Origin: Apostichopus japonicus
Taxonomy: Eukaryota; Echinodermata; Holothuroidea; Aspidochirotida; Stichopodidae
Reading direction: 5' to 3'
DNA length: 64,000 nucleotides
Assembly: GCF_037975245.1 (NCBI RefSeq)
Contig: NC_092569.1
Span: 16,166,001-16,230,000 of the forward strand
In this document: in pieces, positions 3,554 to 63,325 of the stretch
Layout: every line of letters begins with the position of its first letter
How positions within the stretch are numbered: the first letter of the stretch is position 1
The notes under the pieces: model-generated
Told to the model about the DNA's origin: nothing
The model's input: the letters and a program-made list of their open reading frames with translations, nothing else
Database searches by the model: none
Made by a program: the position numbers and the translations under genes

Positions 3554-6500
3554 TTACACTGGACGTATCTTCATTTCTGCGTATTTAATGTTGTAATTAC
3601 CTCCTGGAAGACTATACCAGCGGATGCTTTTATGATTAGTACTTCCCGCTGAGTAAAGTCCGTTTAAACTGACATAATAATTATAATGATTGTACCACCA
3701 AGCTCCATGACAATACTGGGCCATGTTATGACTACCATTAAGGTCGTTGTCACGGTCTAATGTCGTAAATGACTGGTTCCTGAAGTATGCCATTCTATCA
3801 ACCGCTGTGAAAAAGAAATCACGAGATAGAGATAAAAATGCATGATTATATCTACAATAATATTAAGTTATTTCCATACGGCATAAATTAAGAGGATTTT
3901 CATAGTAGAATTTGTGTAAGATTAATGAAACACTGTCATATTAAACAAACATTTTCTTTAAATTTTTATTTATTTCCAAACAAATGTCGTTTACACTGCT
4001 TGAGGAATTATTAGTGCCTTTGGATGAAACTGAACTAATATGGATTTGCTTTATTATATTTTTGTGTTTTTTCCCAACATTGTTAGTAAACCCGGATATA
4101 TTTTATTGCAAACTGACCATCGCTTTACTATAATACTGGAACCCTTTTCGAACGTAAATTAATAAATATAATAAATACGGGACAAAATAGCTGAATTTAG
4201 AACCAGTTTGTTGTCAGTATCCAACTTTCACATCACACCTTATGGATTCATTTTTCTTCATGATACACACTATGTTTATTTCAAGTTATATATCATTGTG
4301 GGAATCGTCTTATGGTTTTATTATTGTTTATGAAGTCTATACAGATTTCTAATTTATTTTGTTTATTCTCTTTTTGTTCTGTTTCCATAAGAACGAAGGT
4401 GATGCCTTTTAGATTATTAGAGAGGATGAAGAAAAAGTTATAGGATGATGGGCAGATGAAAAGGAAGTTGGAATAGGTTTGTTGTTATCAATTACAATGC
4501 ATTCTGTCACTGTAGGTATATGTATCAACCCGAGTTCATTTAAGGTATATCTTTCAACATGAGTTCATTTTCGGAGCGCATTCATCATGGATTCCAACCA
4601 CAGTTCTACCTGGCCAGGTTTCTTCCGATTTGATGACAAACAATGTACTATTTGAATTAAAATAGAGTCAGTAATTGACTATGACCGTCGGCTGTCTATG
4701 CTTGAGCTCCCAATGTTATCGATTATCAAACATGAGTATACTTTATTAAATTTCACATTCGAACACATTAAATGAAACAGATTTATTTAATATTTCTGGA
4801 TATTTTGGAGACAGTGTGCTCAGTGTGATAGCGTTGACGTGATGTATTCGTCTTGTTTTTTTTGTTTTTTTTATAACAACAGAAGTAGAGTATAACGGCC
4901 ATTGCCCGGGAGGTTTGCAATGAATCGTTGCAAATGTATGCAATGTTATAGTAAAACATGTAAAAGAGATTGAATATCGGTTTTGAGCTGATCATTTCTA
5001 AAATGTCTGCGTATATGCTACATATTTGATGAATGGTTACAATCTTCTAATGGACTGACAAACTAAATACACGGGTACATTTAGGTAGTTATGCATAAAT
5101 TGGTAGAGGCGTTCATAATTTCCTTGCTAATACTCAGTCCTTTGAAATATTTGTTTTAAGGTATTGATGCTGACAAGCAGAATCAACGAGGTTGTATATG
5201 TACGTACCTGTAGTGCTGGAGCTATCGTAGTCTCCAAGGCCAACTAAACGATATTTAGTCTTTTCATCGCTGATCCTAAACAGGTCGTACTTGGCAAAAT
5301 AAGGATCTCCATTCACGTTGTTTAAATCAATGCGAAGCATGTAATCCTTTTGGTTAGTTAAGAGTGATATTTTATCGTTGCCAAGCCAAAATTCCCTTTT
5401 CAGGAAACCAAAGCCATCTCTGTAATCATCCCAGTCTCTGTAAAATTCTACGGAACCATCGACCCGGCGTTGGAAGACCTGGTTTAGTTTCAAAAGAAAA
5501 ACATTTCATATTTGGTTTGAAAATAAAGAACAATGTGAACCATTAACGTTTGAGGATATGCTGTATTAGACCGAGTGTAGTTAGTGTTTTAATGGTGCGT
5601 CTAACGTTGAACAGATACAATAGCCTGTGCATCATTTACATTATTCTTTTTCTAATAGAATACATTGGTATCATATCACTTTAGCTCATATTGCAGTAAT
5701 ATGGCTGTAGACACATTTGAAGGTAGCGAAAAACTGTCTCGCTATAAGAGAAAACAATCATACTTAAGATTGTTAAAGGTTACTCGTGCAGTTTTGTTAA
5801 GCGTTATTAGAAATAAATATCTAAGACGGTAAATTTGAAACTAAGTAACGTTTTCCTGAGAATTTCCTTACCGAACGAATCAGCCCCTGTAACACACATA
5901 ATCTGTATCAAGGAATCGCTTTTTAATGAACCAATAAAGTATAAAATATCAAAATACTGCAGCAGGCACGCTAAGTAGAAATTAATTAAGGCTTATATTA
6001 TGTTATGTTCTTACCGTCCAGCCTCCCCCGTCAATTGAGTTATTACAGTAAACTTGAAAAGGTTCATTGGCTCCATCTGGCTTAATCAGATAAATTCCAG
6101 ATTCAGAGGAACTCCCTTCACATTGGTCGTAAACTTCTTTACAATCTCGAGGATATTCTGGCTCTTGGTAGAAAAAGTAGGAGGAGTCTGAAGTAATGAA
6201 AGGAAAAAACTTCAAGTTGTAAGAAATGGATGCGATCATGTTTAAAGTGAACTACCGAACTCGATGTCCCGTTTACCGCTCTATCGATACAATTGGAAAT
6301 TACGGTTTGTAAGAAAAAAAGAAAAAAAGCTTTCCAAATATTAAACATAACCTTCCATACATTTTTTTGGTGCTTGGAATAACACCATTGAAGTTAACGT
6401 CGTCAAATCGTAAAAAGGAACAACAAATATAGAGAGAAATCTTAAACGAAGTCACGGAATATCCCACCTCTTCCCCCGCAAGAAAAATAAATCCTGATAA

Positions 6501-62600: not shown

Positions 62601-63325
62601 AGTTTTTTGTTCATATTAATTACTACATCATGAAACGTAAGTATCAACGCATAAAAACCAAAAATATGTGAAGACCAAAAAAGCAGAAATCACCATTATT
62701 GTCAATCTAAATCATTAATATGACTGATCGATTAATACTGTTTTTGATGATATTATTTTAAAACGGTTCTTAATATTAAGTGACATGAATACTATATATG
62801 TATTTATTCACCGATAGTAACTCTTTTAATTATAAGTCGTTTCCAGCCAGCTTTAAAAGTGGCTTAATTTTCGTTTTACAGTTTTTTTTCTAACTAAATT
62901 AAATAATCCAAAGTATGTCTTTATGTGAAGAAAGCATTAAAAACACAATAAACAGTCGATGATGATATAAGGTAGTAGATATTGGTACATAGTTGGTTAC
63001 AAAATTAAAAAAACGGAAGTACAACGCATATTAAACAAATGTGTGTACCAAAAAAAAAATCACTATACATGTCAATCGAGTTCACTGATATGAATGATTA
63101 ATTAAGTTAGATTAATCATTTACTTCGATGGGTACCTCTAAAATAAAAAATAAATAAATACAATTGCATTCATACTTGTAATGGCCTTTGTTAAAACGTG
63201 ATTTTTTTCCCCCAACAATTGAAATATGCGTTTAAAATAGTAGAAACAAAAAGGAATAATGATGATAAATTTTTCTTACCTCCAGTGCTTCTTTTGTTCC
63301 TTCCAGAATTTTCCCGTCCAACATT
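59602..63325 (-). CDS. Fibrinogen-related secreted lectin, copy E (5' end outside window)
   Basis: Exons 2-5 are present: 63280-63325, 61927-62099, 61112-61382 and 59602-59861. The signal-peptide exon should lie about 3.5 kb further right, beyond the window, judging from copy A. The visible 750 nt stay in frame. The linker with RNKR and exon 3 match A. The central exon has LNKEFW where the others have LKREFW, and DYILRI for DYMLRI. The last exon is type 2, like D ([14 protein letters not shown]), with loop [11 protein letters not shown] before NLNG. Its Cys in QYC and SYC are ten positions apart and could form a displaced disulfide. The mature chain would have five Cys. DNA from exon 3 to the window end is nearly identical to copy A, proximal intron 3 is like B, and the 3' part is like D, so the gene is a recombinant mosaic. 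Intron 4 has a 160-bp (TA)n tract. Confidence 0.86.
60390..60549. repeat. (TA)n microsatellite, intron 4 of copy E
   Basis: 160 bp of uninterrupted alternating TA, twice the length of the matching tract in copy D (43534-43607). Confidence 0.9.

Follow-up and report, generated by a model that had tools for sequence, protein, structure and literature searches.

Expanded families of fibrinogen-related proteins (FREPs) are known from several invertebrates, and to our knowledge it is largely open how one FREP fold gives many specificities. The question is raised by a 64,000-nucleotide stretch of the sea cucumber Apostichopus japonicus (assembly GCF_037975245.1, contig NC_092569.1; C9:16166001-16230000 in the 671.6-Mb genome), which is called the window below. 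It contains fibrinogen-domain (FReD) genes, named A to E, that are nearly uniform up to their last exon and differ in a Tyr-rich loop which this exon encodes. Where does this variation arise, and what might it serve? The genes probably belong to a tandem array of small secreted single-FReD proteins with a homogenised front, exchangeable last exons and a TAT-coded loop, which together would form a germline repertoire of recognition proteins.

Four FReD genes (A-D) are complete in the window, a fifth (E) is present with exons 2-5, and all five lie on the minus strand. All introns of the five genes that lie in the window have GT-AG borders, and the spliced frames are open. Genes A, B and C have short loops (S class): A at 3554..11117 (exons 11049-11117, 7526-7571, 6015-6187, 5208-5478 and 3554-3804; 269 aa), where 3554 is the final base of the stop codon; B at 16908..23488 (exons 23420-23488, 20573-20618, 19127-19299, 18323-18593 and 16908-17158; 269 aa); and C at 29143..37391 (exons 37323-37391, 33354-33399, 31780-31952, 30960-31230 and 29143-29396; 270 aa). 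Genes D and E have long loops with Cys (L class): D at 42743..50558 (exons 50490-50558, 46518-46563, 44956-45128, 44109-44379 and 42743-43002; 272 aa) and E at 59602..63325 (exons 63280-63325, 61927-62099, 61112-61382 and 59602-59861), where 63325 is the first base of exon 2 and exon 1 lies past the window end. The five-exon products of A-D (269-272 residues) have a hydrophobic, signal-peptide-like start, a linker of 15 residues from exon 2 that includes an RNKR site, and then a Fibrinogen_C domain, with 3 to 7 cysteines per protein after RNKR. In A and D, the Pfam profile PF00147 covers the whole domain (positions 2-220 of 221; E=1.4e-65 and 4.6e-63). Fibrinogen_C is the only domain that the Pfam profiles find in these two proteins, and the snail-type FREP layout of an immunoglobulin superfamily region joined to a fibrinogen domain is not seen in them. 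The closest solved proteins are ficolin-2, ficolin-1 and FIBCD1.

The loop, which lies between GAWW and (N/S)LNG, reads YNHYNYYV in A (3671..3694), YKSYSYYA in B (17025..17048), HKSSYYYHA in C (29260..29286) and HGTYCYCDYNS in D (42860..42892), and it is at 59719..59751 in E, all on the minus strand. The sequence-only reading of this DNA had quoted six loops, from the five genes and an orphan exon, and all six are present in the minus-strand sequence exactly as quoted, the last being YGTHCYDFYYDC. This observation is confirmed, as is the abundance of Tyr, which makes up 18 of the 47 loop residues of A-E and 40 of 365 residues elsewhere in exon 5 (p = 8e-6). Base composition was rejected as the source of this abundance, the remainder of exon 5 having 11% Tyr against 38% in the loops. 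The orphan L-class exon 5 (O, 55154..55416, minus strand) retains homology to intron 4 and the 3' flank of D (54975-55877 versus 42559-43464, 72.8%), and no exon 4 belonging to it was found within the window. A frameshift near 55232-55236, after the loop, rules it out as a functional alternative last exon.

The front and the last exon of these genes have had different histories. Among A-E, the synonymous divergence (dS) of exons 2-4 is 0.05-0.12 in every pair. In exon 5 it is 0.06-0.21 for pairs inside {A,B,C} or inside {D,E}, and 0.9-1.1 for pairs across these two groups. By codon bootstrap, the between-group proportion of synonymous differences is 0.55 (0.40-0.73) for exon 5 versus 0.08 (0.05-0.13) for exons 2-4. 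The noncoding DNA follows the same division. Introns 1-3 are 74-99% identical in the compared stretches. Intron 4 and the 3' flank are 39-52% identical between the groups and mostly more than 80% within them, with exceptions at 42-68% (the start of intron 4 in B, and the flank past 1 kb). Intron 4 taken separately has 43-50% identity between the S and L genes of the window, which is the chance level. In D, the first 14 nt of intron 4 (GTACGTATATATAA, 44095..44108, minus strand) are the last stretch that D has in common with A, B and C (identical in B), and homology ends right after. The D cassette that follows, consisting of intron 4, exon 5 and the 3' flank (40745..44094, minus strand), matches C by blastn, exon 5 aside, over a single 63-bp stretch (41473-41535) and does not match A; homology of D to A, B and C returns on either side of the cassette.

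Sites that split the five genes two against three favor A+E in introns 1 and 2 (68/86 and 66/89), C+D (16/33) and B+E (11/33) in intron 3, and D+E (444/544) in intron 4, exon 5 and the flank. Tree tests agree: introns 1-2 group A+E, the region from exon 3 to exon 4 groups B+E and C+D, and the cassette groups D+E against A, B and C. Upstream, the tests reject the best D+E trees; downstream, they reject the best tree lacking D+E. The split counts and the tree tests thus make each window gene a patchwork. Between the last part of intron 1 and the first part of intron 2 (7062-8245 and 62822-64000), the identity of A to E is 97-99%, where other pairs have 72-90%; this points to a recent exchange between these copies, which lie about 55 kb apart. 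Intron 4 contains long (AT)n arrays in both D (43534-43607) and E (60390-60549), which are possible instability sites. The 1 kb upstream of exon 1 (11118-12117, 23489-24488, 37392-38391 and 50559-51558) is 92-95% identical across A-D, which is more than in most compared intron stretches and suggests a common promoter for these four genes.

The window is a part of a larger array, taken here to span 16.16-16.725 Mb on C9 (about 0.55 Mb), in a genome with at least 169 Fibrinogen_C exon matches. The queries were exon 5 of E and, in a second search, exon 4 of A; the best 150 candidates of each were scored, so that the counts are lower bounds. The array contains at least 34 full copies of exon 4, which are 90-100% identical to A in their residues, and at least 38 copies of exon 5. 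The loop can be read in 37 of the latter; in the 38th the match stops inside the loop. These 37 comprise 33 full and open copies (18 S and 15 L), three S copies with a stop, and the frameshifted window orphan. S and L genes are interleaved along the array. The classes were compared with 25 unique intact exon 5s of standard length, identical copies being counted once and one intact copy with a 3-nt longer end (C9:16584229) being dropped. S-L dS is 1.02 in exon 5 minus the loop (156 pairs) versus 0.148 in exon 4 (120 pairs). The uniform scaffold and variable last exon of the earlier reading are present as differences in the protein (dN of 0.010-0.021 in exons 2-4 versus 0.06-0.20 in exon 5 of A-E), but the contrast is mostly one of age (S-L dS 0.15 versus 1.02). 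A constant scaffold with point diversification is rejected as a complete explanation on two grounds: in S-L pairs, dS is about seven times higher in exon 5 than in exon 4, and intron 4 identity between the classes is at the chance level in the window.

The start of intron 4 shows how the last exons are distributed over the fronts. Thirty-three genes with an exon 4 no more than 4 kb from exon 5 could be typed. The S-type start is present in 20 of 20 S genes, including the three with a stop; the 13 L genes have the L type in nine cases, the S type in three and another type in one. The three chimeras (exon 4 at C9:16529215, 16599408 and 16626636) are S-like to about 380 nt of intron 4 and L-like from about 360 nt. 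An S-type front joined to an L last exon in three genes establishes a second junction, separate from the break after 14 nt. These data suggest that last-exon cassettes are exchanged on a homogenised backbone, and the dS contrast points to recombination acting on the scaffold. The family has both the recombining shared parts and the old divergence in the target part that mark concerted evolution of this kind.

Several other places in the array bear on its structure. Two intact L exon 5s (C9:16522453-16522710 and 16452579-16452836) have no full exon 4 within 4 kb; the former, about 5 kb downstream of the exon 5 of another gene, could be an alternative last exon. Three successive genes at C9 16.255-16.284 Mb correspond, in unchanged order, to three at 16.544-16.573 Mb with identical exon-4 and exon-5 DNA, which suggests that a segment of the array was duplicated recently. 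An additional S gene at C9:16238238-16241012 has intact exons 3 and 5 and an exon 4 degraded with stops.

The 37 loops include 28 distinct ones. Their lengths range from 7 to 15 residues: two loops have 7 residues, 15 have 8, two have 9, four have 10, seven have 11, four have 12, two have 14 and one has 15. Tyr accounts for 45% of the residues across the distinct loops. The coding of this Tyr is highly uniform. In the interior of the 25 distinct intact loop DNAs (first three and last codons excluded), TAT accounts for 92 of 146 codons and, together with its one-step neighbours, for 136 of them; 94.5% of the interior codons end in T versus 35% in the whole of exon 5. The genes with exon 4 at 16599408 and 16626636 are identical in 2183 of 2194 aligned bases (99.5%), and they differ by two gaps, one of 3 nt (a TAT) in the loop and one of 42 nt in an intron. 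Triplet slippage, together with point changes, is thus a plausible source of loop variation. Among the titles and abstract openings that literature searches for related families and mechanisms gave, none describes triplet-coded loops in fibrinogen-domain genes.

Relatives elsewhere in the same genome have a different loop. The sample consists of 47 exon-5 copies, hand-picked from 112 listed places beyond 16.16-16.725 Mb, with several of unusual length included deliberately. In 44 of 47 the loop has 7 residues (the pattern scored 42, and two that are cut short read YKNCGLS before NLNG); the remaining three have 8, 10 and 11. A Cys is present at loop position 4 in 44 of 47 and upstream of the loop in 45 of 47. 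In the intact array copies, the upstream Cys (position 401 of FIBCD1) is present in none of 33, and a Cys at loop position 4 in one of 33, within a CCCC run. This contrast of 33 array copies with 47 outside copies marks loss of the Cys pair and freedom of loop length as features of the array. Of the 33 intact copies, 17 combine a Cys two residues before GAWW with a Cys in the loop, 15 have neither, one (gene A) has the first only, and none has the loop Cys only. Only two of the sampled outsiders lack the upstream Cys (C9:32268581-32268835 and C1:21001973-21002239); their loop is longer and, like the L class, they have one Cys two residues before GxWW and another at loop position 5. The disulfide might thus have been relocated, so that the L-class Cys pair would serve as a replacement tether.

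Selection was estimated from the ratio of nonsynonymous to synonymous rates (dN/dS) in array sets of 13 S and 12 L sequences. In both classes the loop exceeds the rest of exon 5: 1.67 versus 0.655 in the S class (p = 9e-5) and 1.02 versus 0.405 in the L class (p = 1.7e-4). The S loop differs weakly from 1 (p = 0.049). In S-class exon 5, site model M2a is preferred to M1a (p = 2.6e-8) with a ratio (w) of 5.2 on 11% of sites; the called sites correspond to FIBCD1 385, 399, 401, the third loop residue and 436. The L class has one site above 0.9 (FIBCD1 429). Site models give no positive selection in exon 4 (p = 1 in S, 0.78 in L). The expectation that dN/dS would be raised in the loop and nowhere else therefore holds in one half: the loop does stand above its surroundings, but the rest of exon 5 in S-class genes has 0.66 against 0.14 in exon 4, and four of the five called sites are outside the loop. 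In the window genes taken alone, loop dN/dS is higher than that of the rest of exon 5 (combined p = 0.01), and in A-C exon 5 exceeds exons 2-4 (p = 4.6e-4). About half of the exon-5 codons of the window genes are near frozen (w 0.02), and half are near 1. Positive selection from the five window genes alone was considered and rejected as not significant. It is supported in the S class only, and there the result is not final because of recombination within exon 5.

Diversified recognition is the best reading of these data, and diversification of binding is likely. The main rival, which is less likely, is neutral tolerance: exon 5 would be old, the intron 4 difference would bar exchange, and the TAT tract would slip in a tolerant surface loop with no selection on binding. 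Several results weigh against the recognition reading, and some of them speak directly for this rival. The L-class loop value of 1.02 is not distinct from 1 (p = 0.93), and M2a supports no site class above 1 in this class (p = 0.37). In the window genes, loop dN/dS does not significantly exceed 1 (p = 0.12 and 0.075), exon 5 and exons 2-4 of D-E show no significant difference in dN/dS (p = 0.076), M2a adds no class above 1 (p = 0.72), and loop columns are not significantly enriched in the fast class (6/8 versus 29/75, p = 0.065). Recombination inside exon 5, detected by the pairwise homoplasy index (p = 0.001 and 0.0045), can inflate site models. Exchange of the last exon is not free, since distances in exon 4 retain a correlation with those in exon 5 (Mantel r = 0.28 overall, 0.31 in S and 0.68 in L) and exon 4 differs slightly more between the classes than within them (p = 0.005). 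The copies counted for the Cys association are related and do not represent independent events, and the array comes from one genome only. The divergent block is the whole cassette, including intron and flank, not a peak at the loop, and three S-class exon-5 copies contain stops.

Other features of the array speak against neutral tolerance. Despite those stops, 33 of the 36 full-length exon-5 copies are still open, and in a simple simulation of neutral drift the probability that A, B and C would all lack a stop is 0.03. The near-frozen half of the exon-5 codons and the S-class site test also argue against it. Phe (TTT), although one step from TAT, is absent from the 146 interior codons, and the frameshifted window orphan has one Phe in its loop. 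Finally, the loop length is nearly fixed in the 47 outside copies. On balance, the immune-type diversification proposed by the sequence-only reading is partly supported.

The position of the loop in the fold gives a further indication of its role. As that reading had noted, a loop of about 7 residues is typical of ficolin-type domains (ficolin-1, ficolin-2 and FIBCD1 have 7), and the array loop aligns to FIBCD1 411-417, a segment that contains the acetyl-holding backbone groups of Cys414 and His415, which would place it at the ligand pocket. In FIBCD1 (PMC3908420, PMC10825690), the acetyl group is bound by the backbone nitrogens of Cys414 and His415 and by Tyr431, in a pocket with Tyr405, Trp443 and Ala432. 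The genes of the window might be ordinary acetyl-binding lectins of the ficolin or tachylectin 5A (TL5A) type, the pocket of which is fine-tuned by loop changes. The closest solved relatives would fit this, and the equivalents of the calcium-binding Asp393 and Asp395 are present in 33 of 33 intact copies, with one residue inserted just after them. The alignment makes such a function very unlikely: A-E have lost or replaced the residues that correspond to Cys401, to the Cys414-His415 clamp and to Tyr431 and Ala432. Neither the Cys401-Cys414 bridge nor the Cys414/His415 clamp of the ficolin/TL5A-type S1 site is found in the array; position 431 is removed by a two-residue deletion, and position 432 is H, Y, Y, S and Y in A-E. 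The Tyr405 and Trp443 equivalents are likewise lost or changed in A-E, except that B and C retain Tyr405. The clamp is preserved in a distant shrimp FREP (PMC7858579), along with a pocket Tyr that is matched to Tyr431 here by its spacing. Variation is not limited to the loop: 27 of 73 non-loop exon-5 columns also vary in A-E, including the non-loop S1 positions (5/5 versus 22/68 others, p = 0.005; a post hoc comparison, supporting only). The loop would therefore occupy the ligand place with the old acetyl chemistry gone, and the labels 'lectin' and 'immune' are not supported as they were first given, the canonical pocket being lost or changed in A-E and a Cys401 equivalent being absent in 33 of 33 intact copies; 'lectin' stays unproven.

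Tyr-rich loops serving cross-linking, clotting or matrix roles (for example through Tyr oxidation or sulfation) in wound closure or regeneration, instead of recognition, would accord with the Tyr content of the distinct loops and with the induction of expanded sea cucumber FREPs in visceral regeneration (reported in the available part of PMC5638244), but such roles, which have no expected need for 28 different loops or for raised dN/dS outside the loop, have hardly any likelihood.

The rest of the window adds little. Eight further open reading frames have no Pfam match above the cut-off, and Rfam (at the gathering score) and ARAGORN find nothing in it. No relatives were confirmed in collections of genome contigs and viral contigs. 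A 145-bp perfect tandem duplication lies at 13402-13693, between A and B.

Taken together, these observations allow the following process to be proposed. Exons 1-4 would be held near uniform by repeated exchange among copies, of which the patchwork phylogeny is the visible trace. The last exon behaves as a separable cassette, and two old classes of it appear on one kind of backbone. Each last exon would carry its Tyr-rich loop to the place where related lectins bind an acetyl group. Gain and loss of TAT triplets, presumably by slippage, may alter the length of the loop, as in the single-TAT change of the two nearly identical genes, and a single substitution in TAT would replace Tyr with Asn, Ser, Cys, His or Asp. 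The disulfide and the acetyl-binding residues of the ancestral pocket are lost or changed, and the Cys pair of the L class may be a replacement tether. The products would be secreted recognition proteins that combine one frame with many loops, and microbial or other non-self surfaces would be their most likely targets.

At the DNA level, the source of variation can be named as a TAT-coded loop and exchangeable last exons, at a known ligand site, and the 47 relatives from the same genome provide a control in which the loop is nearly fixed. Specificity, repeat instability and cassette exchange thereby become testable.

Antibody CDR-H3 loops (third complementarity-determining region of the heavy chain), including the ultralong CDR-H3 of cattle, are rich in Tyr, Ser and Cys. 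Like them, the array combines a fixed frame with a loop that varies in length, is rich in Tyr and contains Cys; it differs in fold, and its loops are germline-encoded in the genome read. A bolder proposal, offered tentatively, is that the array is an invertebrate germline analogue of a CDR3 repertoire, in which a dismantled sugar pocket would have been rebuilt as a Tyr/Cys loop, an unstable TAT tract would yield new loops, cassettes would be traded among dozens of backbones, the disulfide would have moved to tether longer loops, and TAT changes would possibly occur also somatically.

Known tandem FREP clusters share with the array the tandem fibrinogen-domain genes and the large lineage expansion. 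Their accounts, in the parts available, do not mention separable last-exon cassettes, loss of the pocket disulfide or triplet-coded loops, unlike what is found here. Ficolins, tachylectin 5A and FIBCD1 (available parts of PMC3908420 and PMC10825690) have the same domain, the calcium Asp pair and, by alignment, the same place of the loop in the fold. FIBCD1, ficolin-1 and ficolin-2, however, have a 7-residue loop with Cys-His at positions 4-5, and the array loops have 7-15 residues; FIBCD1 has the Cys401-Cys414 bridge, the upstream Cys of which is absent from the array.

Opsin exon 5 (PMC3924837), GOT1 (PMC3728101) and CEACAM32 (PMC7042247), as far as the available parts of these papers describe them, also have homogenised parts beside a functional part that has diverged despite gene conversion. 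In the array, however, the diverged part is a cassette of about 3.4 kb in D, with sharp edges, and it occurs in two classes on many backbones. The Sp185/333 (SpTransformer) genes of the sea urchin, from the available part of PMC5103432, are likewise a clustered invertebrate immune family with mosaic copies. Their protein is unrelated and their diversity is produced by mosaics of elements, whereas the array of A. japonicus relies on one loop and on exon cassettes.

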